This document shows positions 862 to 17,283 of a stretch of DNA of 64,000 bases, one piece after another. Source of the DNA: Pseudomonas mosselii (GTDB lineage: Bacteria > Pseudomonadota > Gammaproteobacteria > Pseudomonadales > Pseudomonadaceae); contig NZ_CP081966.1 in NCBI RefSeq assembly GCF_019823065.1, forward strand, positions 1,078,001 to 1,142,000. The letters are read 5' to 3'. The position numbers and the translations under genes were made by a program. Within the stretch, counting starts at the first letter, position 1. The number at the start of each line of letters is the position of its first letter. The notes under the pieces were generated by a model. That model was given only the letters and a program-made list of their open reading frames with translations. It did no database searches and had not been told where the DNA came from.

Positions 862-3800
862 GTGGACAGACGTGCCGCCCCCCGTTCACCCGCCCGTTTC
901 TCGCAACTGTCGCTGGCTGTCAGCCTGGCTGTCGGTGCGATGGCATTTGGTCTGTCCAGCGAACAGGCGCTGGCCGTCTGTAGCGCGGCCGGTTCGACGA
1001 TCACCTGCAACGGCGCTGCCAACCCGCTGGCGCCGAGCTATACCAATGGCGGCAGTGGCCTTACCGTCAACGTCAACCCAGGCGCGAGCCTGGGTACCTT
1101 GCTGGGCGTGGGCGGCACTTCGTTGTCACTGGCCGGGAACAACAACACCCTGAACAACTCCGGCACCATCGACCCGACGTTGCTCGGGCTGCTGAGCATC
1201 CAGTCCTCCGCCGTGCTGATCGGCAACACCGGCACCGGCAGCATCCTCAACATCAACAACAACGCCACGGGCGTGATCAAGGGCACCGGCGCCTTGCTCG
1301 GCGCCAACCTGCTGAACCTCACCGGCATGGCGCTGGACGCGCGCAACGGCGCCGGCGGCACCACCACCATCAGTAACGCCGGCAGTATCGGCTCCTCGGC
1401 GCTGGCCAGCCTCACGCTGGTGAGCGAGGACACGCCGGTCATCGCCGTGACCGGCGGCAGCACGGTGAACTTCACCAACACCGGCACCATCCTTGGCCGT
1501 GCCGCGTTCGAGGCTTCCGCGGCTGGCAACACCTTCACCAACGCCGGGACCCTGACCGGCAGCCTGTCGATGGGGGCCAACAGCACCAACCGCTTCAACG
1601 CCATCACCGGCTCCAGCGTTGGGGCAGGGCTTGGCGTCGGCGTGGCCTTGCTGGTCACCAGCAACCCGAACCTTGCCTACGCGGCAGCTGGCAAGATCGA
1701 CGGCGGCGCAGGCGGCACTAATACCTTGGCATTGCAAAACGCCATTGGCGGCGGCAGTGGGACCAGTGGCAGCGGCACGATCAACGCCACCAACTACATC
1801 AACTTCAGCCGCCTGATTGTCGACGCCGGCACCTGGAGCCTGATCGGCCAGGTGCTCAACGGCACCACCCAGACCACCCTCAACGGTGGCCAGCTCAACT
1901 TCGACAACGCCAGCGCCTTCGGTAGCGGTGCCATTACCGTCAATGGGGGTGGGCTGGCGGGGACTGTCGGTGGTCTGAGCCTGGCCAACAACTTCATCCT
2001 CAACGCCGGTCTGAGCGTCGGCGGCGCCACCGACATGGCCCTCAATGGCGTGGTTTCGGGTGTCGGCGGGCTGACCAAAACCGGCGCCGGGCTGCTCACC
2101 CTTGGCGCCACCAACACCTACAGTGGCGGCACCACCCTCGCCGCCGGCGGTCTCAACCTGACCAGTGCCGCGGCGCTGGGCAGTGGCGGCCTCACCGTCA
2201 GCGGCGCCAGCAGCCTGCAGGGCAGCGTGCCGCTGGTGTTGAACAGCAACGTGGCATTGAACGCGGCGTTGACCTTGCCCGGCAGCAATGCCCTGACTCT
2301 GGGGGGCGTGCTCAGCGGCACCGGTTCGCTGGTCAAGAGCGGTAGCGGTGGCTTGACGCTGAACGGCGTCAACACCTACAGCGGCGGCACGACCCTGGGC
2401 AGCGGTACCCTCACCCTCGGCAACGCCAGCGCCCTGGGCAGCGGCGCGTTGGCACTGAGCGGCAACGGCACCCTGGACACCACGGCGACCATGGCCCTCG
2501 GCAATGCCATCAATCTGGGCAGCAGTACCCTGATCTTGCCGGGCAATAACGCCTTGACGCTCAACGGCGTGATTGGCGGCAGCGGCAGCCTGACCAAGAA
2601 TGGCACCGCCGACCTCACTCTCAACGGCGTCAACACCTACAGCGGCACCACCACCCTGGGCGGTGGCAAGCTCACCGTCGGCAACAGCGCGGCGCTGGGC
2701 ACCAGCGGCCTGACCCTGGGCGGCAATGCCAGCCTGGACGCCAGCAGCGCGGTCAGCCTGGGCAATGCGATCAACCTGGGGGCCAACACCCTTGACCTGC
2801 TGGGCACCAGCGCCACCACCCTGGGCGGTGTCATCAGCGGGACTGGCGCGCTGGTCAAGAATGGCGCCGGCGACCTGACCCTCAATGGCAACAACACCTT
2901 CAGCGGCGGCCTGACGCTCAACACCGGCAAGCTCACCGTCGGGCACAGCAATGCGCTGGGCAGCGGTGCGCTGACCCTGGGCGGCAACGTCAGCCTCGAC
3001 GCCGGTACCGCGGTCAACCTGGGCAACGCGGTCAACCTCGGCGCCAACACCCTCAACCTGCTGGGCAGCAGTGCCACGACCCTGGGTGGTGTCATCAGCG
3101 GTACCGGCGCGCTGGTCAAGAACGGCAGCGCCGGCCTGACCCTCAACGGCAGCAACACCTTCAGCGGCGGCACCACCCTCAATGGCGGCGTGCTGACCGT
3201 GGGCAACAACAATGCCCTGGGCACCGGCGCGCTGTCCCTGGGCGGCAATGCCAGCCTCGATGCGGGCGTGGCGGTCAACCTGGGCAACGCCATCAACCTG
3301 GGTGGCAACACTCTCACTCTGCCGGGTACGAGTGCCACCACCCTGGGTGGCGTGATCAGCGGCACCGGGGCGCTGGTCAAGAATGGCGGCAGCAACCTGA
3401 CCCTGGGTGGCGCCAACACCTTCAGCGGCGGGCTGACCCTCAATGCCGGTACCCTGACCCTGGCCAGCGCCGCAGCCCTGGGCACGGGCGGCTTGACCGT
3501 CGGTGGGGCCTCGACCCTGGCCAACACAGCAGCGATGACCCTGAACAATGGCGTCAACCTTGGCGCCGACCTGACCCTCGCCGGCGCCAACAATCTCACG
3601 CTGGCCGGCAACCTCGGCGGCAGCGGCGGCCTGATCAAGAACGGCAGCGCCAGCCTGACCCTGAGTGGCAACAACACCCAGAACGGCGCCACGGCGCTGA
3701 ACGCCGGCACCCTGGTGCTCGGCAGCAACACCGCGCTGGGCACCGGCGCGCTCAATGCCGCGGCCAACACCACCCTGGATACCAGTGTCGCCGGGCTGAA

Positions 3801-6800
3801 CATCGGTAACGCCCTCAACCTGGCCGGCAACCTGAACCTGCCCGGCAGCAACGACCTGACCCTGAGCGGCGTCATTGCCGGCGCCGGCGGCATCACCAAG
3901 GGCGGCAACACCACCTTGACCCTGACCGGTGCCAACACCAACAGCGGCTCCACCTTCCTCAACGCCGGCACCCTAATGGTCGGCAACAACACCGCGCTGG
4001 GCACCGGAACCCTCAACACCGCAGCCGGCACCCACCTGGACGCCAGCACGGCCGTGAGCCTGGCCAACGACGCCATCATCGCCGGCCCCCTGACCATCGA
4101 CGGCACCGCCAACCTGGGCTTGAGCGGCGTGCTCAGCGGCATCGGCTCGCTGGTCAAGAACGGCAACGCCAGCCTGACCCTGAGCGGCAACAACGTCTTC
4201 ACCAACGGCACCCAGCTCAACGCCGGTACGCTGGTCCTGGGCAGCAACACGGCATTGGGCATCGGTAGCCTGACCCTGGGTGGCAACGCCAACCTCGACA
4301 CCAGCAGCGCTGTCGCGGCCACCAACACCATCAGCCTCGGCGCCAACACCCTGACCGTGCTGGGCAGCAACGCCACCACCCTGACCGGGCAGATCAGCGG
4401 TACCGGCGCGCTGGTCAAGAGCGGCAGCGCCGCCCTGACCCTCAACGGCAACAACACCTACAGCGGCGGCACCACCCTCAACGGTGGGTTGCTGACCCTG
4501 GGCAACAACAACGCCCTGGGCACCGGCGGCTTGACCCTGGGTGGCAACGCCAGCCTCGACAGCAGCGGCACCCTCAACCTGGGCAACGCCATCAACCTCG
4601 CCGGCAATACCCTGACCCTGGCAGGCAGCAATGCCACCACCCTAGGCGGCGTGATCAGTGGCACTGGCGCACTGACCAAGAACGGCAGCACCAACCTGAC
4701 CCTGTCAGGCGCCAACACCTTCAGCGGTGGTCTCAACCTCAATGCCGGGACCTTGACCCTGGCCAGCGCCGCCGCGCTGGGAACCGGCGCGCTGAACGTC
4801 GGCGGCGCGGCCACCCTGGCCAACGCCACGGCCATGACCCTGAACAACGCCATCAACCTCGCAGCCGACCTGTCCCTGCCCACCACCAGCAACCTCACCC
4901 TGGCCGGCAACCTCAGTGGCACCGGCGGCCTGGTCAAGAGCGGCAGCGCCACCCTGACCCTGAGCGGCAACAACACCCACAGCGGCGCCACCGCGCTCAA
5001 CGCCGGCACCCTGGTACTGGGCAGCAACACCGCCCTGGGCACTGGCGCGCTGAATGCCGCCAACAACACCACCCTGGACACCAGCGTCGCCGGCCTGAAT
5101 ATCGGCAACGCGCTGAACCTGGCCGGCAACTTCATCCTGCCCGGCAGCAACGACCTGACCCTGAGCGGCACCATCGCCGGCGCCGGCGGCATCACCAAGA
5201 ACGGCGCCACCCGCCTGACCCTGACCGGCAACAACAGCAACAGCGGCATCACCCGTCTGAACGCCGGTACCCTGGTGGTCGGCAGCAATACCGCGCTGGG
5301 CACCGGCACCCTCAACACCCTGGCCGGCACCCACCTGGATGCCAGCACCGCGGTCAGCCTGGCCAACGACGTCACCATCGCCGGCCCCCTGACCATCGAC
5401 GGCAGCGCCGACCTGGGCCTGAGCGGCGTGGTCAGCGGCATCGGTTCGCTGGTCAAGAACGGCAACGCCAACCTGACCCTGAGTGGCAACAACCTCTACA
5501 CCAACGGCACCCAGCTCAATGCCGGCACGCTCACCCTTGGCAGCAACACTGCGCTGGGGATCGGCGCCCTGACCCTGGGCGGCAACGCCAACCTCGACGC
5601 CAGCACCGCCGTGGCGGTGACCAACGGCATCAGCCTGGGCAGCAACACCCTGAGCGTGCTGGGCAGCAATGCCACCACCCTCGGTGGCCTGATCAGCGGC
5701 AGTGGCGCGCTGGTCAAGAATGGCAGCGCCGGGCTGACCCTCAACGGCAACAACACCTACAGCGGCGGCACCACCCTCAATGCCGGGCTGCTGACCCTGG
5801 GCAACAACAACGCCATCGGCAGCGGCGCCCTGAGCGTGGGCGGCAATGCCAGCCTCGACGGCAGCGCCGCGCTCAACCTGGGCAACGCCATCAACCTCGG
5901 CACCGGCGCCACCCTGACCTTGCCGGGCAGCAATACCACCACCCTTGCTGGCGTGATCAGCGGCGCTGGCGCGCTGACCAAGAACGGCAGCACCAACCTG
6001 ACCTTGTCAGGCGCCAACACCTTCAGCGGGGGGCTCAACCTCAACGCCGGCACCCTGACCCTGGCCAATGCCGCGGCGCTGGGGACTGGCGCGCTGAACG
6101 TCGGGGGGGCCGCAACCCTGGTCAACAGCGTGGCGATGACCCTGGGCAACGATGTCAACCTCGGCGCCAACCTGACCCTCGGCGGCAGCAACAACCTGAC
6201 CCTTGGCGGCGTGCTCGCAGGCACCGGCGGCTTGGTCAAGAACGGTGTGTCCGACCTGACGCTGACCGGCAACAACACCTTCAGCGGTGCCATCGACCTG
6301 CTCGGCGGCAGCATCACCACGGTCGGTACCACGGCCCTGGGCAATACCTCGGCGGTCAGTGTCGGTGCCGGCACCAGCCTCAACCTCGGCGCCAGCGCCA
6401 CCATCGGTGGCCTGAGCGGTGCCGGTACGGTGAACATCGCCGCTGGTGGCGCCCTGACCCTGGGCGGCAACAACCTCAACAGCGTGTTCAGCGGTGCATT
6501 GGCCGGCAGCGGTGGGTTGGTCAAGACCGGCACTGGCAGCTTCGAGCTGTCCGGGGTCAACGTGCTAGGTGGCAACACCACGGTCAATGCCGGCCTGCTC
6601 AATGTCACCGGCTCGCTGGCCAGCCCCGGCGTGCAGGTCAACAGCGGTGCCAGCCTCGGCGGCACCGGCAGCTTGCTGGGGGCGGTCGACATCGCCAACG
6701 GCGCGCACCTGCTGGCCAACAGCGGTGCGACCCTCAGTACCGGCGCGCTGACCCTGCACAGTGGCTCGATCCTCGACTTCGGCCTGGGCTCGCCAGCCAC

Positions 6801-9800
6801 TGGCGGTACCGCGCTGGTCAACGTCAACGGCAACCTGACCCTGGACGGCACCCTCAACGTCACCGACGTCGGCGGCTTCGGCACCGGTATCTACCGGCTG
6901 TTCGACTACACCGGCGCGCTGGTCGACAACGGCCTGCTGGTCGGCAACGTGCCAGGCGCCATGCTGCCTGGCGACCTGCAGGTGCAGACCTCGATCGGTA
7001 GCCAGGTCAACCTGCTTGTCGGCGGCGCCTCCGGCACCGTGCAGTTCTGGGATGGCGGCCAAAGCGTGCCCAATGGCGTGATCGACGGCGGCACCGGCAC
7101 CTGGAATGGCAGCAACACCAACTGGACCGATGTCAACGGTGTGCTCAACGGCAGCTGGGCCAGCGACTTCGCGGTATTCCAGGGCACTGCAGGGGATGTC
7201 ACCGTGGTCGGCACCCAGGCCGCCACTGGCCTGCAGTTCGTCACCAACGGCTACCGACTGATCGGCGCCGGTGGGCTGGACCTGGTCAACGGCAGCAACG
7301 GCGCCTTCGCCGTGCGTGTCGACCCTGGCGTCACCGCGACCCTCAACGTTGGCCTCTCGGGCAGCGGCCAACTGGCCAAGCTCGACAGCGGCACCTTGGT
7401 GCTCAATGGCGCCAACAGCTACACCGGCGGCACCCTGCTCAACGGTGGCACGATCGTGGTCGGCAACAACACCGCTTTGGGTAGCGGTTCTGTCAGTACC
7501 GCCAACAGCACCACCCTGGACAGCAACACCGCCGTGACCCTTGGCAACGCCTTCAATCTCAGCGGTGCCCTGACCGTCGCGGGCTCCGCCGACCTGGGGC
7601 TGTCCGGCGTGGTCTCCGGCCTTGGCAGCCTGGTCAAGGCCGGCGGCGCCAACCTGACCCTGGGTAACGCCAACACCTACAGTGGCGGCACCAGCCTGGG
7701 TGCCGGTACCCTGACCCTCGGCAACGCCCAGGCGTTGGGTACTGGCGGCCTGACCGTCACCGGCGCCGCCAGCCTGGACACCTCCGGTAACCTGGCACTG
7801 GGCAATACCGTCGCCCTGAATGCCAACCTCACGCTGCCGGGAACAAACGACCTCAGCTTCAACGGAGCGCTCAGTGGCACCGGGGGCCTGGTCAAGACAG
7901 GTTCCGGCACGCTCACCCTCAACGGCAGCAACAGCCAGCAGGGCAGCACCAGCCTGAACGGCGGCACCCTCGTGGTAGGCAGCAACACCGCGCTGGGCAC
8001 CGGTGCGCTGAACGCAGTCGGTGGCACCACCCTGAGCAGCAATGCCAACGTCAACCTGGCCAACCAGCTCAACCTGGCCGGCAACCTGACCATCGCCGGG
8101 GCGCAGAACCTGACCCTGGGCGGCAACGTCAACGGCGTCGGCGGCCTGACCAAGACCGGCAGCGGCACCCTGACCCTGAACGGCACCAATGGCAACCTGG
8201 GCAACACCAACCTCAATGCCGGTACCCTGGTGCTCGGTAGCGCCAGCGCCCTCGGCCTTGGCCAGCTCAACGCGGCGGCCGGCACCACGCTGGACAGCGC
8301 TGCGGCGATCAACATCGGCAACACCGTCAACCTGGGCGGCGACCTCACCATCACCGGCAGCAACGACCTGGGGCTGGGCGGGCTGGTCACCGGTGCCGGT
8401 AGCCTGATCAAGAACGGTGCCAGCAACCTTACCCTCAGTGGCGCCAACACCCTGATCGGCGGCGTGACCCTCAATGCCGGCACGCTTACCCTGGGCAACA
8501 ACCAGGCGCTGGGCACTGGCACCCTGACTGTCGGTGGCGCCAGCAACCTGGCCACCACCGGCGCCCTGACCCTGGCCAATCAGGTGACGCTCAACAGCAC
8601 CCTGAACCTGACCGGCAACAACAACCTGGCCCTCAATGGCGTGATCAGCGGCACCGGCGGCCTGAGCAAGACCGGCAGCGGCAACCTGACCCTCGGCGCC
8701 GCCAACACCTACCAGGGCACCACCACCCTTGGCGGCGGCACCCTGACCCTGGGCAACAACGTCGCCCTGGGCACGGGCAACCTTGCGGTGACCGGCAACA
8801 GCACCCTGGCCACCATCGGTGTACTGCAGGTGGTCAACGCCATTGGCCTTGGTGCCGGCACCACCCTCGGCATCAACAACACCCAGACCCTGACCCTCGA
8901 TGGCGTCATCAGCGGTGCCGGGGCGTTGAACAAACTGGGTGCCGGGCAACTGGTGCTCAATGGCAGCAACACCTACGCCGGCGGCACCTCGCTGCAGGCC
9001 GGCAGCCTGCTGCTGGGCAATGCCGGCGCCCTGGGCAGCGGAGCACTGACCGTCAACGGCGCCGCCAGCCTCGATGCCAGCCAGGCGCTGGCGCTGGTGA
9101 ACGCCATCAACCTCGCCGGTGGCAACCTGACCCTTGGCGGCAGCCAGGCGCTGACCCTCAACGGCGTGATCTCCGGCAGCAACGGCCTGGTCAAGAACGG
9201 CGCCGCTACCCTGGCCCTGAACGGCAACAACACCTACAGCGGCGGCACCACCCTCAACGCCGGCACTCTGGTGGTCGGCAGCAACACCGCGCTGGGCAGC
9301 GGTGACCTCAGCACCGGCGCCAACACCAGCCTCGATGCCGGCGGCGCGGGCGTCACCCTGGCCAACAATGTGCATCTGGGCGGTACCCTCAACCTGCCGG
9401 CCAGCGCCGACCTGACCCTCAACGGCGTGGTGGATGGCGTCGGCGGCCTGAACAAGTCGGGCGCCGCGACCCTTACCCTCAACGGCGCCAACAACTACCT
9501 GGGCGGCACCACCCTGAATGCTGGCCGGTTGGTGGTCGGCAACGACAACGCGTTGGGGCAGGGCGCCCTGACCGTCGCCGGGGCCTCGACCCTGAGCAGC
9601 GGCGCCAGTACCGCCCTGGCCAACAACGTCACCCTCAACGCCGGCCTGACCGTCGATGGCGGCAACGACCTGACCCTCAACGGCGTGATCAACGGCACCG
9701 CCGGCCTGACCAAGAACGGCAGCGGCAACCTGACCCTCAATGGCAACAACGGCTTCCAGGGCGGCACCCAGCTCAACGCCGGGCGCCTGACCGTGGGCAA

Positions 9801-12800
9801 CAGTGGGGCGCTGGGTACCGGCACCCTGTCGGTCACCGCCGACGCCACCCTGGCCAACAGCGCGCCCATGGCCCTGGGCAACACCATCGCCCTGAGCAAT
9901 GGTGCCAACCTGACCGTCGATGCTGTCAACGCGCTGATCCTCAGTGGTGACCTGGGCGGCAGCGGCAACCTGGTCAAGACCGGCGTCGACGACCTGACCC
10001 TGGTCGGCGTCAAGACCTTCACCGGCAATGTCGACATCCAGGCCGGCTCCCTCACCACCCTCGGCAGCGGTGTGCTGGCCAACGTCGACACCCTCAACGT
10101 CGGTGCCAGCGGCCAGCTCAACCTCAACGGCAACGCCAGCCTCGGCAGCCTGACCGGCAGCGGCCAGGTCGATGTCGGCATCGGCAGTGTCCTGAGCCTG
10201 GGCGGCAACAACCTCAGCAGCACCTTTGCCGGCGGCCTCAACGGCCTGGGCGGCCTGACCAAGGTCGGCAGTGGCACCCTGACCCTTACCGGCACCAGCA
10301 ACCTGGCTGACAACACCCTGGTCAACGCCGGCACCTTGAAAGTCGACGGCACATTGGGCAGCAACCTGCTGACCGTCGCCAGTGGCGCCACCCTGGCGGG
10401 TAGCGGCACCGCCAACGCCACGGTGGTGATCAACAACGGCGGTCACCTGGCCGGGCAGAGCGGTGCCACCCTGAGCCTCGGCAGCCTGGTGCTCAACAGC
10501 GGCTCGATCGTCGATGTCGGCTTGGCGTCACCGTCTACCGGCGGTACCGCGCTGTTCAACGTCGGCGGCAACCTGACCCTCGACGGCACGCTCAATGTCA
10601 GCAGCATCGGCGGCTTCGGCAACGGTGTGTACCGCATCTTCGACTACACCGGCGCCTTGACCGACAACGGCCTGGACTTCGGCACTCTGCCGCTGGGCGT
10701 GGGCCTGGGCGACGTGACCCTGCAGACCGCACTGGCCAACCAGGTCAACCTGCTGGTCAGCGCCGCGGGCCTGAACATCCAGTTCTGGGACGGCAGCCAG
10801 AGCGTGGCCAACGGCCAAGTCGATGGCGGCACTGGCGTGTGGAACGCCGGCAACACCAACTGGACCGACCTCAACGGCGTGCTCAACACCACCTGGGGCA
10901 GCACCTTTGCGGTGTTCCAGGGCACGGCGGGCGACGTCACCGTCGATGGCAGCCAGACCGTCAATGGCCTGCAATTCGTCACCGATGGCTACCGCTTGCT
11001 GGCCGGCACCGGCGGTGCGCTCGACCTGATCAATGGCACGAGTGGCGACACCAGCGTGCGGGTCGATCCAGGTGCCACGGCAACCCTCGATGTCGGCCTG
11101 ACCGGCGTCGGCAAGCTCAACAAGCTCGACAGCGGCACCCTGGTGCTCAATGGCAGCAACAGCTACAGCGGCGGCACCCTGCTCAGCGGCGGTACCTTGA
11201 TTGTCGGCAGCAACACGGCCCTGGGCGGCGGCGCGCTCGACACCACGGCGGGCACCACCCTCGACAGCAACGCCTCGGTAGCGCTGGGCAATGCCATCAC
11301 CCTGGCCGGCCCGCTGAACATCGCCGGTAGCAATGACCTGGCCCTCAACGGCAACATCGGCGGCGCCGGTGGCCTGGTCAAGGCCGGCAGCGCGCGGCTG
11401 GCGCTGGCCGGCAACAACACCTATGCCGGCAATACCGCGCTCAATGGCGGCACCCTGGTGCTGGGCTCCAACACCGCGCTCGGCACCGGCACCCTGACCA
11501 CCGCACCTGGCACCAGCCTGGACAGCAGCCAGGCGGTCACCCTGGCCAACAATGTCACCACCATGGGCGACCTCACCGTGCTGGGCAGCAACGACCTGAC
11601 CCTGGGGGGTACCGTCGGCGGCACCGGCCGCCTGCTCAAGGCCGGCCTGGCGCGCTTCGCGCTGATGGGGGCCAACACCTACAGCGGCGGCACCGAGTTG
11701 CAGGCCGGCACGCTGGTGGTCGGCAACAACGCGGCGCTGGGCACTGGTGGCCTGGAGGTCACCGGTAACGCCAACCTCGACAGCGCCAGCGCCGTCACCC
11801 TGGCCAACCCGGTCAATGTCAGCGGTGTGCTCAACGTGCTTGGCACCAACGACCTGCACCTGGCCGGCGTGCTCAGCGGCGCGGGCGAGCTGAACAAGAG
11901 CGGCCTGGCCGACCTGACCCTGTCGGGCAACAACACCTTCAGCGGCATCCTCAACATTCTCTCCGGCAGCCTGAGCACCCTCGGCACCACTGCCCTGGGT
12001 ACCCAGAGCCAGTTGAACGTCAGCACCGGCGCCAGCCTCAACCTCGACGGCAACACCAGCCTTGGCGACATCGGCGGCACCGGCGCGATCCAGATCGCCG
12101 CCGGCAACAGCCTGACGGTCGAAGGCGGCGTGTTCGGCGGCAATATCAGCGGCACCGGTACCTTGAACAAGCTCGGCAGCGCCACCCTGGCGCTGAACAG
12201 CGCCAACAGCCATACCGGCACCACCAACGTCCAGGCGGGCGGTCTGAAAGTGGACGGCTCCCTGGCCAGCGGCGCGGTCAACGTGGCCAGCGGCGCCAGC
12301 CTCAGCGGTGCCGGCAGCCTCGGCGGGGCGGTGACGGTGGCCAACGGCGGCAATCTCGCGGCCACCAGTGGCAGCACGCTGAACGCCGGCAACCTGGTGC
12401 TCGACAGCGGCGCCAACTTCAACGCTTCACTGGGCACGCCCTCGGGCGGCGGCAGCCCGCTGGTCAACGTCGCCAACAACCTGACCCTGGGCGGTACCCT
12501 CAACGTCACCGACATCGGCGGCTTCGGCGCCGGGGTCTACCGGTTGTTTGCCTACGGCGGCAGCCTCACCAACAACGGCATGAGCTTCGGCACCACGCCG
12601 GTACCGATCACCGACCTGACCGTGCAGACCGCCGTGGCCAACCAGGTCAACCTGGTGGTCGGCGGTGCCAGCAACGTACTGTTCTGGGACGGCAGCCAGA
12701 GCGTCGCCAACGGCCAGATCGACGGTGGCAGCGGCACCTGGGACGCCATCAACACCAACTGGACCGACGTCAACGGCGTGTTGAACAGCACCTGGAACGA

Positions 12801-15800
12801 CACCTTCGCGGTGTTCCAGGGCGCCCCCGGCACCGTCACCGTGAACGGCAGCCACAGCATCACCGGCCTGCAGTTCGTCACCGATGGCTATGTGCTCAAC
12901 GCCGGTACCGCCGGTGAGTTGCTGGGCAACGGCACCACCAACCTGCGTGTCGACAACGGCGTCACCGCCACCCTCAACGTCGCCCTCAACGGCACCGGCA
13001 GCGTCGCCAAGCAAGACGGCGGCACCCTGGTGCTCAACGCCGCCAACGGCTACAGCGGTGGCACCGCCCTCAACGGCGGCACCTTGGTGCTGGGCAACAA
13101 CAGCGCGCTGGGCAGTGGCACCCTGACGGCCGCGGGCGGCACCACGCTGGACAGCAACACCGCCGTCACCCTGGCCAATACCACCGTGCTCAACGGTGCC
13201 CTGGCCATCGCCGGCAGCAATGACCTGACCCTCAACGGTGTGGTCAGTGGTACCGGCGGGCTGATCAAGAACGGTGCCGGCCTGCTGACCCTGAACGGGG
13301 CCAACACCTACAGCGGCGGCACCCAGATCAATGCCGGCGGCGTGGTGGGCAATACCACCAGCCTGCAAGGCGCGATCCTCAACAACGGAGCCCTGACCTT
13401 CGCGCAGAACGCCAACGGCAGTTACACCGGCAACCTCAGCGGCAACGGCACCCTGGCCAAGAACGGCACTGGCGAGCTGCTGCTGACCGGGGTCAACACC
13501 TTCACCGGCGCCACTAGCGTCAACGCCGGCACCTTGTTGGTCAACGGCCGTCTCGACAGCACCAGCGTGCAGGTCGCCACCGGCGCCCGCCTGGGTGGCA
13601 GCGGCACCTATGGCGGTGCCGTGCAGATCGCCAACGGCGCCACCCTGGCTGCTGGCCAGAGCGCCACGCCACTCACCGTCGGCAGCCTCGACCTGGCGTC
13701 GGGCAGCGCCCTGGACTTCAGCCTCGGCGCTCCGGCCGCCTCCACCACCGTGGTCAGGGTCAACGGCAACCTGGTGCTCGACGGCACGCTGAACATCACC
13801 GATGCCGGCGGTTTCGGCACTGGTGTCTACCAACTGTTCAGCTACGGCGGCACGCTCACCGACAACGGCCTGGTGTTCGGCGCCATTCCGGGCAGCGTGG
13901 TCCTGGGCGACCTCAGCCTGCAGACCGCCATCGCCAACCAGATCAACCTGGTGGTGCAGAACTACGGCGAGGAGCTGCAATTCTGGAATGGCGGCAAGAC
14001 CAATCCCGACGGCAGCATCGGCGGCGGCAGCGGCACCTGGGGCTCGAACACTGGCTGGACCAACGCCGGTGGCACCACCAGCGAAGGCTGGAGCGGCGGC
14101 TACGCGGTCTTCGGCGGTACGCCGGGCACCGTCACCGTGGTCGGCAACCAGTCGTTCGACGGGCTGCAGTTCCTCAGCAGTGGTTACCAGGTGGTCCCGG
14201 GGGCCGGTGGCAGCCTGACCCCAGTCAACGATACCGACGGCAGCCTGGCGTCGGTGCGTGTCAACGCCGGCGCCACGGCCACCATCAGCGCGCCGCTGGT
14301 CGGCACCGGCGGTATTGAGAAACTCGACGCCGGCACCTTGATCCTCGCAGGCGCCAACACCTACAGCGGCGGCACTACCGTCAGCGGAGGTACCCTGGTC
14401 GGCAACACCACCAGCCTGCAGGGCAACATCCTCAACAATGCCAACCTGGTGTTTGCCCAAGGTAGCAATGGCACCTTTAACGGCACCCTAAGCGGAACCG
14501 GCACCACCACCAAGCAGGGCGGTGGCACCCTGCTGCTGACCGGTAACCAGCCGTTCAGCGGCGCCTTCAACGTCAACCAGGGCGTGCTCCAGGTGGGCGA
14601 TGCCGCCCACCCGGGCAGCACCCTCGGCGCCCAGGTCACGGTAGCCAACGGCGCCGCGCTGACCGGCAACGGCACCGTCGCCGGGCTGACCAACAACGGC
14701 ACCGTGCTGCCGGGGCCGGCCGGCAACCTGAACGTATCGGGCAACTTCACCAATGGCGCCACCGGCACCCTGGTAATCGACCTTGCCACCTCGCCGGTGA
14801 ACTACTTGAACGTGGGCGGCACGGCCAACCTCGGCGGCAGCCTGATGGTGGCCAACCTCGCCAGTGGCAACGGCCAGTACACCGTGGTCAGCGCGGCGGG
14901 CGGTGTCACCGGCACCTTCGCCACCACCAACCTGGCAAACTCGGCGTTCCTCAACAGCTCGCTGAACTATGGCGCCAACCAGGTGACCCTGTCGGTCAGC
15001 CGCAACGGCACCTCCTTCGCCGATGTCGCCGCCACCGGCAACCAGCGTGGTGTGGCCACCGCCCTCAGCAGTGCCGGGGCGCCGGCCGAGCTGGTCAACA
15101 ACGTGCTGCCGCTTGACCGCCAGGCTGCCCAGGCGGCATTCGACAGCCTGTCCGGCGAGATCCACGCCAGCACCGCGACCGTGCTGATCGAGGACTCGCG
15201 CTACGTCCGCGACGCGGTCAACGACCGCCTGCGCCAGGCTGACTGCAGCAACCAGGACGATCCGCGTCGCACCTTGGCGCCGACCGCCAACCAGCAACTG
15301 ACCAGCGAAGGCTGCCAGGGCCAGGCCGTGGGCTGGATCCGCGCCATCGGCGGCTGGGGCACCTACGACGGCAGCAGCAGCCATGCCAGCGTCGACCGTG
15401 ACCTGTCGGGCTTCATGCTTGGTGTCGACCGTGCCCTGGATGACCAGTGGAAAGTCGGCGCCGCCGCCGGCTACACCCGCTCGAGCATCGATGCGCACCG
15501 TCGCCGCTCCGACGCCACGGTGGACAGCTATCACCTGACCACTTACCTCGGCTACCAGCTGGACGCCTTCGCCGCCCGTATGGGCGTGGCCTACAGCTGG
15601 CACGACATCGACACCAAGCGTGATGTCACCGTGGGCAGCTACGACGACCGCCTCAAGGCCAAGTACAAGGCGCGCAGCGCCCAGGTGTTCGGCGAGGTGG
15701 GCTATGCCATCGATGCCGGCGGTATCGCTCTGGAGCCGTTCGCCGGCCTGGCCTACGTCAACTACGACAGCGACACCGCCCACGAGAAGGGCGGAGCAGG

Positions 15801-16146
15801 GCGGCTGGAGGGCAAGGTCGATCAGGACGTGACCTTCTCCACCCTGGGCGTGCGGGCCGGCAAGCGCATGCTGCTCGACAACGGCAGCAGCGTTACGCCG
15901 CGGCTGTCGGTGGGCTGGCGCCATGCCTTCGGTGACGACAAGCCTGATGCCGATCTGCGCTTCGTCGGTGGCGGCGCCGGGTTCAGCACCGAGGGCGTGC
16001 CGATCGCCAAGGACGCGGCGGTGGTCGAGGCCGGGGTGGATTTGTCGGTGGGCGCGAGCGGCAAGCTGGGGGTCGGGTATTCCGGGCAGCTGTCGAGCGA
16101 GAACCGCGACCATGGTGTGGTGGTGAGCTTCAGCATGGGGTTCTGA
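862..16146 (+). CDS. Giant PATR-repeat autotransporter / adhesin
   Basis: A 5,094-residue type Va secreted protein in one uninterrupted frame. The GTG start is set by AAGGAG six bases upstream. An N-terminal signal segment (about residues 10-38, hydrophobic core ending in ALA) is followed by ~350 residues of Gly/Asn/Thr-rich beta-helix. About thirty copies of the autotransporter-associated beta-strand repeat (PATR) follow, roughly residues 395-4570. Each is ~87 residues with the pattern GxGGLxKxGxGxLTLxGxNTYSGGTxLNxGTLxxGxxxALGxG. Four longer Trp-containing modules interrupt them. Residues ~4720-5094 form a linker and autotransporter beta-barrel ending in the expected C-terminal Phe (SFSMGF). 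Cysteines occur only near the N-terminus and just before the barrel, as is usual for passengers that cross the outer membrane unfolded. No protease triad or other catalytic motif is visible. Adhesion, autoaggregation or biofilm formation is an inference. The barrel region resembles those of the two S8 autotransporters at 57-63.6 kb. Confidence 0.93.
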   Translation: MDRRAAPRSPARFSQLSLAVSLAVGAMAFGLSSEQALAVCSAAGSTITCNGAANPLAPSYTNGGSGLTVNVNPGASLGTLLGVGGTSLSLAGNNNTLNNSGTIDPTLLGLLSIQSSAVLIGNTGTGSILNINNNATGVIKGTGALLGANLLNLTGMALDARNGAGGTTTISNAGSIGSSALASLTLVSEDTPVIAVTGGSTVNFTNTGTILGRAAFEASAAGNTFTNAGTLTGSLSMGANSTNRFNAITGSSVGAGLGVGVALLVTSNPNLAYAAAGKIDGGAGGTNTLALQNAIGGGSGTSGSGTINATNYINFSRLIVDAGTWSLIGQVLNGTTQTTLNGGQLNFDNASAFGSGAITVNGGGLAGTVGGLSLANNFILNAGLSVGGATDMALNGVVSGVGGLTKTGAGLLTLGATNTYSGGTTLAAGGLNLTSAAALGSGGLTVSGASSLQGSVPLVLNSNVALNAALTLPGSNALTLGGVLSGTGSLVKSGSGGLTLNGVNTYSGGTTLGSGTLTLGNASALGSGALALSGNGTLDTTATMALGNAINLGSSTLILPGNNALTLNGVIGGSGSLTKNGTADLTLNGVNTYSGTTTLGGGKLTVGNSAALGTSGLTLGGNASLDASSAVSLGNAINLGANTLDLLGTSATTLGGVISGTGALVKNGAGDLTLNGNNTFSGGLTLNTGKLTVGHSNALGSGALTLGGNVSLDAGTAVNLGNAVNLGANTLNLLGSSATTLGGVISGTGALVKNGSAGLTLNGSNTFSGGTTLNGGVLTVGNNNALGTGALSLGGNASLDAGVAVNLGNAINLGGNTLTLPGTSATTLGGVISGTGALVKNGGSNLTLGGANTFSGGLTLNAGTLTLASAAALGTGGLTVGGASTLANTAAMTLNNGVNLGADLTLAGANNLTLAGNLGGSGGLIKNGSASLTLSGNNTQNGATALNAGTLVLGSNTALGTGALNAAANTTLDTSVAGLNIGNALNLAGNLNLPGSNDLTLSGVIAGAGGITKGGNTTLTLTGANTNSGSTFLNAGTLMVGNNTALGTGTLNTAAGTHLDASTAVSLANDAIIAGPLTIDGTANLGLSGVLSGIGSLVKNGNASLTLSGNNVFTNGTQLNAGTLVLGSNTALGIGSLTLGGNANLDTSSAVAATNTISLGANTLTVLGSNATTLTGQISGTGALVKSGSAALTLNGNNTYSGGTTLNGGLLTLGNNNALGTGGLTLGGNASLDSSGTLNLGNAINLAGNTLTLAGSNATTLGGVISGTGALTKNGSTNLTLSGANTFSGGLNLNAGTLTLASAAALGTGALNVGGAATLANATAMTLNNAINLAADLSLPTTSNLTLAGNLSGTGGLVKSGSATLTLSGNNTHSGATALNAGTLVLGSNTALGTGALNAANNTTLDTSVAGLNIGNALNLAGNFILPGSNDLTLSGTIAGAGGITKNGATRLTLTGNNSNSGITRLNAGTLVVGSNTALGTGTLNTLAGTHLDASTAVSLANDVTIAGPLTIDGSADLGLSGVVSGIGSLVKNGNANLTLSGNNLYTNGTQLNAGTLTLGSNTALGIGALTLGGNANLDASTAVAVTNGISLGSNTLSVLGSNATTLGGLISGSGALVKNGSAGLTLNGNNTYSGGTTLNAGLLTLGNNNAIGSGALSVGGNASLDGSAALNLGNAINLGTGATLTLPGSNTTTLAGVISGAGALTKNGSTNLTLSGANTFSGGLNLNAGTLTLANAAALGTGALNVGGAATLVNSVAMTLGNDVNLGANLTLGGSNNLTLGGVLAGTGGLVKNGVSDLTLTGNNTFSGAIDLLGGSITTVGTTALGNTSAVSVGAGTSLNLGASATIGGLSGAGTVNIAAGGALTLGGNNLNSVFSGALAGSGGLVKTGTGSFELSGVNVLGGNTTVNAGLLNVTGSLASPGVQVNSGASLGGTGSLLGAVDIANGAHLLANSGATLSTGALTLHSGSILDFGLGSPATGGTALVNVNGNLTLDGTLNVTDVGGFGTGIYRLFDYTGALVDNGLLVGNVPGAMLPGDLQVQTSIGSQVNLLVGGASGTVQFWDGGQSVPNGVIDGGTGTWNGSNTNWTDVNGVLNGSWASDFAVFQGTAGDVTVVGTQAATGLQFVTNGYRLIGAGGLDLVNGSNGAFAVRVDPGVTATLNVGLSGSGQLAKLDSGTLVLNGANSYTGGTLLNGGTIVVGNNTALGSGSVSTANSTTLDSNTAVTLGNAFNLSGALTVAGSADLGLSGVVSGLGSLVKAGGANLTLGNANTYSGGTSLGAGTLTLGNAQALGTGGLTVTGAASLDTSGNLALGNTVALNANLTLPGTNDLSFNGALSGTGGLVKTGSGTLTLNGSNSQQGSTSLNGGTLVVGSNTALGTGALNAVGGTTLSSNANVNLANQLNLAGNLTIAGAQNLTLGGNVNGVGGLTKTGSGTLTLNGTNGNLGNTNLNAGTLVLGSASALGLGQLNAAAGTTLDSAAAINIGNTVNLGGDLTITGSNDLGLGGLVTGAGSLIKNGASNLTLSGANTLIGGVTLNAGTLTLGNNQALGTGTLTVGGASNLATTGALTLANQVTLNSTLNLTGNNNLALNGVISGTGGLSKTGSGNLTLGAANTYQGTTTLGGGTLTLGNNVALGTGNLAVTGNSTLATIGVLQVVNAIGLGAGTTLGINNTQTLTLDGVISGAGALNKLGAGQLVLNGSNTYAGGTSLQAGSLLLGNAGALGSGALTVNGAASLDASQALALVNAINLAGGNLTLGGSQALTLNGVISGSNGLVKNGAATLALNGNNTYSGGTTLNAGTLVVGSNTALGSGDLSTGANTSLDAGGAGVTLANNVHLGGTLNLPASADLTLNGVVDGVGGLNKSGAATLTLNGANNYLGGTTLNAGRLVVGNDNALGQGALTVAGASTLSSGASTALANNVTLNAGLTVDGGNDLTLNGVINGTAGLTKNGSGNLTLNGNNGFQGGTQLNAGRLTVGNSGALGTGTLSVTADATLANSAPMALGNTIALSNGANLTVDAVNALILSGDLGGSGNLVKTGVDDLTLVGVKTFTGNVDIQAGSLTTLGSGVLANVDTLNVGASGQLNLNGNASLGSLTGSGQVDVGIGSVLSLGGNNLSSTFAGGLNGLGGLTKVGSGTLTLTGTSNLADNTLVNAGTLKVDGTLGSNLLTVASGATLAGSGTANATVVINNGGHLAGQSGATLSLGSLVLNSGSIVDVGLASPSTGGTALFNVGGNLTLDGTLNVSSIGGFGNGVYRIFDYTGALTDNGLDFGTLPLGVGLGDVTLQTALANQVNLLVSAAGLNIQFWDGSQSVANGQVDGGTGVWNAGNTNWTDLNGVLNTTWGSTFAVFQGTAGDVTVDGSQTVNGLQFVTDGYRLLAGTGGALDLINGTSGDTSVRVDPGATATLDVGLTGVGKLNKLDSGTLVLNGSNSYSGGTLLSGGTLIVGSNTALGGGALDTTAGTTLDSNASVALGNAITLAGPLNIAGSNDLALNGNIGGAGGLVKAGSARLALAGNNTYAGNTALNGGTLVLGSNTALGTGTLTTAPGTSLDSSQAVTLANNVTTMGDLTVLGSNDLTLGGTVGGTGRLLKAGLARFALMGANTYSGGTELQAGTLVVGNNAALGTGGLEVTGNANLDSASAVTLANPVNVSGVLNVLGTNDLHLAGVLSGAGELNKSGLADLTLSGNNTFSGILNILSGSLSTLGTTALGTQSQLNVSTGASLNLDGNTSLGDIGGTGAIQIAAGNSLTVEGGVFGGNISGTGTLNKLGSATLALNSANSHTGTTNVQAGGLKVDGSLASGAVNVASGASLSGAGSLGGAVTVANGGNLAATSGSTLNAGNLVLDSGANFNASLGTPSGGGSPLVNVANNLTLGGTLNVTDIGGFGAGVYRLFAYGGSLTNNGMSFGTTPVPITDLTVQTAVANQVNLVVGGASNVLFWDGSQSVANGQIDGGSGTWDAINTNWTDVNGVLNSTWNDTFAVFQGAPGTVTVNGSHSITGLQFVTDGYVLNAGTAGELLGNGTTNLRVDNGVTATLNVALNGTGSVAKQDGGTLVLNAANGYSGGTALNGGTLVLGNNSALGSGTLTAAGGTTLDSNTAVTLANTTVLNGALAIAGSNDLTLNGVVSGTGGLIKNGAGLLTLNGANTYSGGTQINAGGVVGNTTSLQGAILNNGALTFAQNANGSYTGNLSGNGTLAKNGTGELLLTGVNTFTGATSVNAGTLLVNGRLDSTSVQVATGARLGGSGTYGGAVQIANGATLAAGQSATPLTVGSLDLASGSALDFSLGAPAASTTVVRVNGNLVLDGTLNITDAGGFGTGVYQLFSYGGTLTDNGLVFGAIPGSVVLGDLSLQTAIANQINLVVQNYGEELQFWNGGKTNPDGSIGGGSGTWGSNTGWTNAGGTTSEGWSGGYAVFGGTPGTVTVVGNQSFDGLQFLSSGYQVVPGAGGSLTPVNDTDGSLASVRVNAGATATISAPLVGTGGIEKLDAGTLILAGANTYSGGTTVSGGTLVGNTTSLQGNILNNANLVFAQGSNGTFNGTLSGTGTTTKQGGGTLLLTGNQPFSGAFNVNQGVLQVGDAAHPGSTLGAQVTVANGAALTGNGTVAGLTNNGTVLPGPAGNLNVSGNFTNGATGTLVIDLATSPVNYLNVGGTANLGGSLMVANLASGNGQYTVVSAAGGVTGTFATTNLANSAFLNSSLNYGANQVTLSVSRNGTSFADVAATGNQRGVATALSSAGAPAELVNNVLPLDRQAAQAAFDSLSGEIHASTATVLIEDSRYVRDAVNDRLRQADCSNQDDPRRTLAPTANQQLTSEGCQGQAVGWIRAIGGWGTYDGSSSHASVDRDLSGFMLGVDRALDDQWKVGAAAGYTRSSIDAHRRRSDATVDSYHLTTYLGYQLDAFAARMGVAYSWHDIDTKRDVTVGSYDDRLKAKYKARSAQVFGEVGYAIDAGGIALEPFAGLAYVNYDSDTAHEKGGAGRLEGKVDQDVTFSTLGVRAGKRMLLDNGSSVTPRLSVGWRHAFGDDKPDADLRFVGGGAGFSTEGVPIAKDAAVVEAGVDLSVGASGKLGVGYSGQLSSENRDHGVVVSFSMGF
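2990..6290 (+). repeat. Higher-order repeat, ~1.30-kb period (five PATR units)
   Basis: Inside the PATR array, groups of five units repeat as a block. The segment coding AGTLTL(A)SAAALGTG begins at 3451, again at 4750 (offset 1,299 bp) and again at 6052 (offset 1,302 bp). The intervening units match in order: the AAALG unit, the ALNAA unit, the TLNT.AGTHLDAS unit, the IG(S/A)LTLGGNANLD unit and the NNNA(L/I)G unit. About 2.5 copies are present before the similarity ends near 6290. Confidence 0.8.
6590..7400 (+). repeat. Trp-containing adhesin module, copy 1
   Basis: In-frame module within the giant adhesin: a short beta-helix stretch, the motif GGFGTGIYRLFDYTG, then FWDGGQSV near nt 7047, TWN...NTNW and GLQFVTNGYRL. 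Related copies lie at about 10330-11150, 12230-13040 and 13520-14350 and divide the PATR array into blocks. These are the only passenger segments with Trp residues at regular places. Confidence 0.75.
10330..11150 (+). repeat. Trp-containing adhesin module, copy 2
   Basis: Second copy of the module, with GGFGNGVYRIFDYTG, FWDGSQSVANGQ near nt 10786, VWN...NTNW and GLQFVTDGYRLL. It lies ~3.74 kb after copy 1 in the same frame. Confidence 0.75.
12230..13040 (+). repeat. Trp-containing adhesin module, copy 3
   Basis: Third copy: GGFGAGVYRLFAYGG, FWDGSQSVANGQ near nt 12684, TWD...NTNW and GLQFVTDGYVL. It lies ~1.9 kb after copy 2 and is closest to it over the FWDGSQSVANGQ segment. Confidence 0.75.
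13520..14350 (+). repeat. Trp-containing adhesin module, copy 4 (diverged)
   Basis: Fourth, more diverged copy: GGFGTGVYQLFSYGG, FWNGGKTNPDG near nt 13983, TWG...TGW and GLQFLSSGYQ. It lies ~1.3 kb after copy 3. After it the passenger changes to a short set of imperfect repeats leading to the barrel. Confidence 0.7.
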
Positions 16147-16154
16147 AGTAGATC

Positions 16155-16368
16155 GCCGGGGCTGCTTTGCAGCCCTTTCGCGATACAAGGCCGCTCCCAC
16201 ATCTATTTCGGGCCAATTTTTCCTGTGAATGAGGCGGCGCCCGCCTTGGTGCACGCCTCAAGTCGTGCGGGGCGGCAGTGGTGCCCATGCTGAAGTTGCG
16301 TCGGACCAACAAGGCGGACCAGGTAATGGCTCAGGACTGACTGGCCCGAAACAGATGTGGGAGCGGCC
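16155..16368. repeat. REP doublet with 27-bp inverted arms
   Basis: Two REP-like palindromic units in opposite orientation flank 126 bp. The first (16155-16200) has GGGCTGC TTT GCAGCCC followed by TTTCGCGATACAAGGCCG. The outward 27-bp arms at 16189-16215 and 16342-16368 are inverted copies of each other with one mismatch and extend past the REP core into TTTCGGGCCA. The enclosed 126 bp carry no recognisable gene. The first unit sits 9 bases after the adhesin stop and could act as its transcription terminator. Confidence 0.7.
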
Positions 16369-16594
16369 TTGCGTCGCGATGCGCCGCGCGGGCGGCGCTC
16401 GATCTTGCAGGCGCTGCAAGGCCATCGCCAAGCACCTGGTGGCCATGACGCGATCAAAACCTCGCCCCAAACCCCGTAAGACATTTCCGAATTTGAAACC
16501 AAATCCTTCAGCCAGCCAGCGCTTCGGACCTATCCTACGCGCCTGCCGGAAGGCTCTGAATTGGCCGGGAAATACATCAGGGGTACCGTCACTG
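16369..16594. other. Non-coding stretch before the structured leader
   Basis: About 225 bases between the REP doublet and the leader. No supported gene. One frame stays open right through this stretch and the leader into the DUF6124-like gene, but the protein it predicts here has no start signal and no family features. A TTGAAA sits at 16493-16498 without a suitably spaced -10 box. Confidence 0.4.
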
Positions 16595-16795
16595 GGTCGT
16601 CACATTTGGCGACCGGGTGTGAGAAGCCCGTCCATGTCCAGATTCAGGTTGCCTGTTATGGCAGCCGTGCGCGCGCAGACTTCGGTCTGGCCGTGGTGTC
16701 TGGACACGGTCTTCTCACCTCGCGTACGGCTGCCACCCTTGTCTGTGAGAAGGATGCTGGTGGTTGCTCTAGAAACCCTTTCCAGAGTAACAACT
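16595..16795 (+). promoter_or_regulatory. Structured 5' leader with mutually exclusive stems
   Basis: A ~200-base leader of the DUF6124-like gene. Stem P1 pairs 16619-16626 (GTGAGAAG) with 16711-16718 (CTTCTCAC) and continues inward as CCGT/ACGG and GTCCAGA/TCTGGAC (16636-16642 with 16699-16705), 19 pairs in all. Inside it P2 (16647-16653 with 16660-16666) and a UUCG-capped P3 (16676-16680 with 16685-16689) form a junction. A small hairpin may precede it at 16595-16614. Two rival pairings exist: 16659-16673 with 16721-16735 (15 pairs, one G-U), and 16711-16718 with a third GTGAGAAG copy at 16745-16752. These cannot form together with P1, as in attenuators or riboswitches. The gene's own ribosome binding site is weak. 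I cannot name an Rfam family. Confidence 0.6.
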
Positions 16796-17041
16796 ATGAA
16801 AAAACTAGTACCTGACCCACCCTACCCAATCCCCTTCGTCACCATCATCAGCGACCTCGACCCCGAGGAAGCGATGGCCCACGCCAACAAGCTGATGCAC
16901 ATCCTCAGCGACACCGTCCACGCCTACACCGTCTGCCAGCGCGACGAGCGTCTCGACGTGATGATGGACAGCGTCGAGATCCTCGGCCAACTGGTCATCT
17001 CGCTGGTCCGCCACGCCCGGGCCAAGGGGGCGCCGGTATGA
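16796..17041 (+). CDS. Small DUF6124-like protein
   Basis: An 81-residue acidic, probably helical protein of unknown function, of the kind labelled DUF6124 in pseudomonads (my recognition, not a search). It begins MKKLVPDPPY; a helical segment around residues 25-45 and a hydrophobic C-terminal helix (SVEILGQLVISLV, about 60-72) follow. The start is the ATG at 16796, where the conserved MKK(L/I)VPDPP start lies. A weak GAG precedes it, and the frame is open far upstream through the leader, which I treat as non-coding. Its TGA overlaps the ATG of the next gene (ATGA), so the two are translationally coupled. The two proteins look like distant paralogues: both have a Pro-rich start, a mid helix and the pattern s..iL..L...Li near the end. 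Confidence 0.7.
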   Translation: MKKLVPDPPYPIPFVTIISDLDPEEAMAHANKLMHILSDTVHAYTVCQRDERLDVMMDSVEILGQLVISLVRHARAKGAPV

Positions 17042-17283
17042 GCGACGACTTCAAGCCCGGCCCGACCCAGGGCAAGACCACCTGCCTCGAGATCTTCTGC
17101 ATCCAGCCCGGCATCCCGTTTGACCACGCGTTCAGCGACCTGTCGGTGCTGCTCGGCTGTGTGGCGCATTTCACCACCGAGGCCGAGATGGAGGGTGACC
17201 TCATGGCCGCCAGTGCGGCGCGAATTCTCAGCGGGCTGGCCAAGGGGCTGATCGATGACATGGAGCTGGGGTTGAACCGGTAG
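17038..17283 (+). CDS. Small DUF3077-like protein
   Basis: An 81-residue protein matching the DUF3077 pattern common in Pseudomonas: LEIFCIQPGIPFDHAFSDLSVLL (about residues 19-41), then an Ala-rich helix and GLAKGLIDDMELGL at the end. The function is unknown. It overlaps the upstream DUF6124-like gene by four bases and ends just before a GC-rich hairpin at 17292-17310. There is no signal peptide or membrane segment. The pair, with its structured leader, appears to be an independent transcription unit. Confidence 0.7.
   Translation: MSDDFKPGPTQGKTTCLEIFCIQPGIPFDHAFSDLSVLLGCVAHFTTEAEMEGDLMAASAARILSGLAKGLIDDMELGLNR

Follow-up and report, generated by a model that had tools for sequence, protein, structure and literature searches.

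A C4-type antisense RNA cassette ahead of two small genes in Pseudomonas mosselii, and its many counterparts with mostly locus-specific pairing codes in Pseudomonas chromosomes

The leader of two small overlapping genes in Pseudomonas mosselii is a C4 antisense RNA unit of the kind known from phage P1. This identity of the RNA is close to certain, and the match between the layout of the cassette and a C4 unit is strong. A Pseudomonas chromosome can hold dozens of these cassettes, most of them with a pairing code of their own. As an overall explanation we favour, with a probability of roughly 85%, a self-silencing cassette, in which the C4 RNA probably keeps the two genes behind it switched off, as its counterpart in P1 would suggest. 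The window referred to below is the whole analysed stretch of 64,000 nucleotides (contig NZ_CP081966.1, positions 1,078,001 to 1,142,000), and its coordinates are used throughout.

An Rfam scan of the whole window returned a sole match, C4 antisense RNA (RF01695) at 16654-16740, with 66.6 bits against a cut-off of 45; this was also the outcome of the comparison with Rfam that the earlier note on this DNA had proposed. The alignment spans 87 of 87 positions, with two non-standard pairs marked, and consists of a closing stem and two inner hairpins, with a' single-stranded and b' exposed in a loop. A laxer scan added the c4-a1b1 element (RF03163) with 26.1 bits (E 2.2e-4), below its cut-off of 46.7, which is exceeded in 6 of 18 paralogous loci. 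Up to E 0.1 the leader matched C4-clan models and one lncRNA model but no riboswitch family. The following features, all on the forward strand, make up the cassette:

16561-16589, +, predicted promoter: -35 TTGGCC (16561-16566), 17-nt spacer, -10 TACCGT (16584-16589)
16583-16634, +, c4-a1b1 element, comprising the putative transcript start with a hairpin and a1 (RF03163, below cut-off)
16619-16626, +, a1, the first GTGAGAAG copy, flanked by CGGG and CCCG (from the sequence; position equivalent to the annotated a1 of P1)
16635-16642, +, b1 TGTCCAGA, complement of b' (from the b'-b1 score)
16654-16740, +, C4 antisense RNA (RF01695); predicted mature form 16660-16737 (78 nt)
16696-16704, +, b' loop GTGTCTGGA in the second inner hairpin (Rfam alignment and sequence)
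16711-16718, +, a' CTTCTCAC, unpaired in the C4 fold (Rfam alignment)
16745-16752, +, a2 target, a further copy of GTGAGAAG, pairing with a' (16711-16718)
16763-16791, +, ribosome-binding-site hairpin GTTGCTCT...AGAGTAAC (predicted fold), containing b2 TCCAGA (16781-16786)
16796-17041, +, ORF1, 81 aa, beginning MKKLVPDPP
17038-17283, +, ORF2, 81 aa, DUF3077 (PF11275), overlapping ORF1 by 4 nt

The predicted promoter would place the transcript start near 16596. Upstream of C4, a corresponding motif (TTGNNN-N16..18-TANNNT) was found at 47 of the 62 loci in two genomes; 200 block-shuffled sets had 4.2 on average and 10 at most. The ends of the mature C4 are predicted by analogy with the annotated 77-nt c4 of P1; the GG start and GCCACC end that both RNAs have in common are consistent with RNase P processing to about 77 nt. 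The distance from a2 to the ATG of ORF1 (44-51 nt) resembles that from a2 to icd in P1 (41-47 nt). Within the cassette, b' pairs with its own b1 at a score of 10.0, compared with 5.4-6.2 against the b1 of seven relatives, and a' ranks first in its row for its own downstream a2, ties allowed. The b'-b2 pairing is short, with an ungapped score of 8.7 and cognate rank 8 of 19.

Two other elements lie upstream. An open frame at 862-16146 would encode a repeat-rich protein of 5094 aa whose end, judged by eye, is autotransporter-like. Between this frame and the C4 unit, a 48-nt inverted pair (16178-16225 and 16332-16379; 85% complementary, GCCGCTCCCACA core) probably represents a pair of REP-type elements.

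The earlier note had described the leader as a set of competing stems, and its pairings are borne out. The arms 16619-16631 and 16706-16718 of its 19-pair stem 'P1' are 92% complementary (inverted repeat I18), its 15-pair rival between 16659-16673 and 16721-16735 is 93% complementary (inverted repeat I11), and GTGAGAAG is found both at 16619-16626 and, as the 'third copy', at 16745-16752. The minimum-energy fold of 16596-16800 (-89.4 kcal/mol, z = -4.05) includes the 'P1' stem, and the rival fold of 16660-16737 has -46.2 kcal/mol (z = -5.07). Because none of 200 shuffles was as good in either case, the stems go beyond chance. All of them can be read as parts of a C4 unit: in the 'P1' stem a1b1 pairs with b'a', the 15 rival pairs close the C4 fold, and the third copy is a2, a rival for a'. 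The best fold of the whole leader has the a1b1:b'a' form, and the C4 form is the fold of the excised RNA. The two folds would fit a role of a1b1 in delaying or limiting C4 while the precursor is uncut.

These folds also bear on what kind of regulator the leader is. The earlier note rightly saw a folded regulatory leader, with pairings that exclude one another, in front of two putatively coupled genes; the ribosome binding site, described there as weak, is predicted to be masked. From this layout the note inferred a riboswitch, an attenuator or a leader under protein control. The rival stems and the masked ribosome binding site would suit stems that switch in cis on binding a ligand or protein, as would the fact that the whole leader is most stable as a1b1:b'a' rather than as C4. 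However, Rfam offers nothing outside the C4 clan but the low-scoring lncRNA match, and the variable loops co-vary with the target sites from locus to locus (see below), which a ligand pocket would not need. A ligand-dependent switch is thus highly improbable, and the element is better described as a C4 antisense RNA with P1-like a1/b1 and a2/b2 sites. Compensatory changes, which the earlier note had suggested as a check, are present: the 19 C4 RNAs of this genome adopt one common fold with 24 predicted pairs, 13 of which have changes on both sides.

Two other readings of the leader were discarded. The lncRNA match, to a human model, reaches 18 bits against a cut-off of 70 and was taken as chance. 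A coding leader was considered because the ORF1 frame is open through leader and C4 in the window (567 nt), which left room for translation as part of a longer protein; however, in 10 of 19 paralogues and in 5 of 7 orthologous-type loci the same frame meets a stop past the start of C4.

The cassette is one of many. The P. mosselii genome contains 19 C4 loci above the cut-off, all 19 with an ATG 39-57 nt past the C4 end and 17 with a peptide start of the K-x-x-PDPP type (16 found by script, L017 by eye; L009 and L011 differ). Pfam places a DUF3077 or DUF6124 gene no more than 1 kb from 11 of the 19, and the remaining loci include short leader peptides and proteins that score below the Pfam models. 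A second complete Pseudomonas genome (G097) has 43 C4 matches, 42 of them above the cut-off. Here 37 of the 43 precede a DUF6124 or DUF3077 gene and, conversely, C4 lies within 1 kb of 35 of 39 DUF6124 and 4 of 5 DUF3077 genes; in both genomes together, 48 of 62 C4 loci are ahead of such genes. A genus-wide sample gave a C4 match in 110 of 119 genomes (109 above the cut-off), with up to 33 candidates scored per genome, so that the copy counts in the 16 genomes that reached this ceiling are lower bounds. In a sample of the class, 18 of 274 genomes, P. mosselii included, had a match, with up to 15 candidates scored per genome. DUF6124 was found in 12 of 148 genomes of the family, from 2 of 19 genera, and neither C4 nor DUF3077 nor DUF6124 occurred in 14 control genomes. 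Relatives of ORF1 were found at 34 loci in named genomes, 33 of them under Pseudomonas titles and the other in a metagenome assembly with the title Paucimonas (L084), and C4 lies upstream in all 34. These loci were recruited partly by the pattern MKKLVPDP, which biases their common start.

Several individual loci deserve mention. The Paucimonas-titled assembly has the same kind of C4-DUF unit. Four tandem copies of C4 plus ORF occupy 1.4 kb at L155 (G379, contig 9), in a 1.5-Mb genome with six C4. In L017 and L024 the xKIVPDPP start belongs to a separate short peptide (18 or 25 aa) running into a larger ORF, an arrangement reminiscent of the coupling of icd and ant. tmRNA and tRNA genes lie less than 2 kb from two C4 loci (L009, 2079-2471; L025, 4575-4661) and may mark integration sites. 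Three of the 12 DUF3077 genes of P. mosselii have no C4 within 1 kb, and the C4 model finds none in their stretches; these genes (L141, L142 and L143, near 3640792, 3659337 and 3336739) are possible targets in trans.

Pairing between C4 RNAs and targets was measured with a windowed ungapped score of a'+b' against a2+b2, a measure chosen after plain duplex energies had been seen. In the P. mosselii genome the cognate target came first in 17 of the 19 rows and in as many columns (z 12.2; 0 of 20,000 permutations as good), the exceptions being L016 and the window locus. The within-genome permutation retains the Shine-Dalgarno constraint common to all targets. In G097, where three of the 43 loci were omitted (one with an unrecognised start, one without a2b2, one degenerate), the cognate target ranked first in 31 of 40 rows and 34 of 40 columns (z 19.7; 0 of 10,000 permutations as good); 9 of the 40 loci lacked first rank by rows, and 34 of 1560 non-cognate pairs reached the cognate score. 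The 40 usable loci comprise 40 distinct b' and 27 distinct a' segments. The pairing of b' with b2 is strong in most paralogues, and b' alone gives row rank 1 in 15 of 19 loci of P. mosselii. Among loci with identical a' segments, b' finds its own target in 5 of 5 cases in P. mosselii and, in G097 (n=8), in 6 of 8 rows and 8 of 8 columns. The a1b1 element favours its own C4 too, less sharply (z 7.5 in P. mosselii). RNAduplex energies alone point in the same direction with lower ranks, the whole b'a' segment coming first in 8 of 19 rows, because stem letters pair everywhere. Against the self-silencing reading stands the window locus, whose own b'-b2 pairing is weak and whose a'+b' scores higher on the target of L015 (19.9) than on its own (16.6).

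The same scores can be set against the proposal that chromosomal C4 RNAs act mainly in trans, as an immunity repertoire against incoming phages with C4-type targets, and that the genes behind them are secondary. Pseudomonas phages do carry C4 modules, and the accessible part of a study of Acinetobacter raises the same idea (PMC5320573). But the best of the 62 chromosomal C4 RNAs beat the cognate RNA for one of seven phage or viral targets (PAJU2, 17.9 versus 17.0) and stayed below it for the other six, whereas each chromosomal C4 fits the gene directly behind it far better than chance. A repertoire of this kind is therefore very unlikely to be the main function, and silencing of the adjacent genes is the reading followed here.

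How the code changes can be seen at a single chromosomal site. Both flanks of the window site match those of L057-L059 (P. peradeniyensis, P. soli and P. mosselii) and of L063; among the first 12 rows listed per locus, L060 and L062 have the left flank alone and L061 neither. Between the window and L057-L059, the ORF1 DNA (97-99% identity), a1 (97-100%), a' (100%) and a2 with its flank (93%) are conserved, whereas b1 (36-41%), b' with its stem (57%) and b2 (47-53%) have diverged, so that b1, b' and b2 differ together. The C4 body (72-82%) and the spacer (62-67%) have changed too, and import of a leader segment by recombination is thus as possible as stepwise change. The b' segments of L057-L059 score 12.5 on their own b2, and that of the window 5.4-5.9 on the b2 of these loci; conversely, the b' of L057 scores 9.1 on the window b2, as good as the window's own b' (8.7). 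The matrix of orthologues is mixed, several b' pairing equally well or better with the b1 or b2 of another locus. For the 23 locus pairs whose proteins are at least 80% identical, identity averaged 1.00 for a', 0.88 for the stems, 0.76 for b', 0.73 for b2 and 0.91 for the ORF DNA, and b' was unchanged in several of these pairs. The joint change of b1, b' and b2 beside nearly constant coding DNA raises the question of which pressure drives divergence of the code.

The target leaders often fold as two hairpins that expose a2 and b2 (mean z -0.94, n=59), a predicted shape that is suggestive of loop-loop contact. In 19 of 59 loci a CTCC precedes the GGAG Shine-Dalgarno sequence, compared with a mean of 8.7 and a maximum of 13 after shuffling. 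This potential CTCC/GGAG stem, together with the hairpin predicted over the ribosome binding site in the window, could be taken to mean that C4 activates ORF1 by opening a hairpin that masks its start; the IsrK RNA of Gifsy-1, not called C4 in the accessible part of the source, activates orf45-anrP in trans (PMC4825925). However, in many loci b' pairs with the Shine-Dalgarno sequence or the start codon itself and should block ribosomes, and the C4 of P1 represses. Activation is hardly credible on these grounds, and repression remains the preferred direction.

The earlier note had named the downstream genes a DUF6124/DUF3077 pair. This is correct for ORF2, which matches PF11275 (DUF3077) with 34.5 bits (cut-off 21), while ORF1 stays below every Pfam cut-off and has no match in PHROGs. 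Among 37 aligned ORF1-type proteins, five match DUF6124 and five DUF3077 at E <= 0.01, and the ORF1 and ORF2 profiles are homologous to each other (probability 94%, E 1.4e-7). AlphaFold2 models ORF1 as a helical hairpin (pLDDT 85.1) and ORF2 as a strand pair plus a helical hairpin (pLDDT 92.6). A sequence search of the PDB with both profiles gave one weak match, chain SG122_C3 (E 3e-4 and 0.01). The changes in an evolved P. putida include a DUF3077 gene annotated as a pseudogene, according to the accessible part of PMC9630843.

In the proposed mechanism, which for processing and repression of C4 rests on analogy with P1 and P7, a single promoter would read a1b1, C4 and the ORF1-ORF2 mRNA. The closing stem of C4 is tRNA-like, and here RNase P would presumably release the RNA; in the uncut precursor, pairing of a1b1 with b'a' may compete with C4 folding. 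With its a' and b' loops the free C4 RNA would bind the a2 and b2 sites of the mRNA species from which it came and cover the ribosome binding site of ORF1, which would silence ORF1 and, through putative translational coupling, ORF2 with it. This phage-type switch has probably been copied to many chromosomal places ahead of small paralogous DUF6124/DUF3077 proteins, each copy having drifted, or been selected, towards its own a'/b' code.

Outside Pseudomonas, 24 of the 30 non-own C4 matches listed were examined, and each has complements of a' and b' before an ORF, found without permutation control and with two weak a' matches. In at least six of these 24 the gene behind C4 has an AntA, Rha (2), P22_AR_N, Bro-N or KilA-N domain, all of phage antirepressor types, and copies per genome number 1-6 (up to 15 scored). 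In Pseudomonas phages, 32 records match one C4 region of G097; the four examined all score with the C4 model, and one of these carries an annotated Rha-like gene upstream. A phage antirepressor switch was likely taken over and then multiplied in the Pseudomonas chromosome. The window leader had no match in phage DNA, nor did a coding stretch of G097. A phage or plasmid origin of the protein pair was considered and rejected: tblastn with ORF2 found nothing in 50,697 phage records and matched one Pseudomonas plasmid. Seven IMG/VR loci encode relatives, two of them with C4; in at least four of the others the match lies less than 100 nt from the end of the stretch, where C4 could not be seen.

The host chromosome would here have adopted and multiplied an immunity RNA of phages, with a candidate regulatory function for two families of domains of unknown function (DUF6124 and DUF3077). 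The natural pairs of antisense RNA and target, roughly 20-40 in each genome and with their cognate preference measured, form a ready-made set. In the literature searched, which extended to few subscription journals, no description of the Pseudomonas C4 set was found; as far as this search shows, what is new is the expansion in Pseudomonas, the gene families linked to it and the near-orthogonality measured here. One could go further and suppose that Pseudomonas domesticated a phage immunity switch into many near-orthogonal self-silencing cassettes whose code is under diversifying pressure, forming a self/non-self or zygotic-induction system distributed along the chromosome, with DUF6124/DUF3077 proteins as output. 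This idea is speculative and rather unlikely. If true, a cassette would be silent beside its own C4 and be expressed on entering a cell that lacks its code, until C4 accumulates.

In multi-copy type I toxin-antitoxin systems, too, an antisense RNA silences a small protein, and many paralogues coexist with separate specificity. Unlike in these systems, the C4 RNA would be cotranscribed with its target and cut from the leader, instead of arising from an opposing promoter. A close likeness is to the immI operon (c4-icd-ant) of P1 and P7. The P1 record annotates a1, b1, c4, a2, b2, icd and ant1, with ant1 beginning 4 nt before the icd end, and the window has the same order of promoter, a1, b1, C4, a2 and b2, followed by a small ORF and a second ORF that overlaps it by 4 nt. 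P1 scores 68.8 bits with the C4 and 51.0 bits with the a1b1 model, and five C4 loci of P. mosselii have the same a' CTGTCAACC as P1. The C4 RNAs of P1 and P7 are processed by RNase P and bind their target mRNA through a' and b', and a 4-nt difference restricts cross-reaction between the two phages (PMC5320573, in the accessible part, citing Citron & Schuster and Hartmann). In contrast to immI, the Pseudomonas cassettes are chromosomal and multi-copy, and their ORF1 and ORF2 are of the DUF3077 type. The cassette is not a P1-type immunity operon, in which C4 controls icd and an antirepressor, since ORF2 is a DUF3077 protein and ORF1 has no Pfam or PHROGs match; by eye, ORF1 bears no visible resemblance to Icd of P1. 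The copy number has a precedent in the Group 1 sRNAs of Acinetobacter baumannii AB5075, 21 C4-like sRNAs in one genome (PMC5320573, accessible part), which makes that of Pseudomonas less surprising. These sRNAs are reported to be highly expressed and processed from longer transcripts, and their a' loop is variable; the accessible part of that paper names no cis-linked target gene and leaves the targets open. In Pseudomonas, by contrast, a target site and a gene directly follow the C4 RNA, and the pairing between them was measured and is locus-specific.
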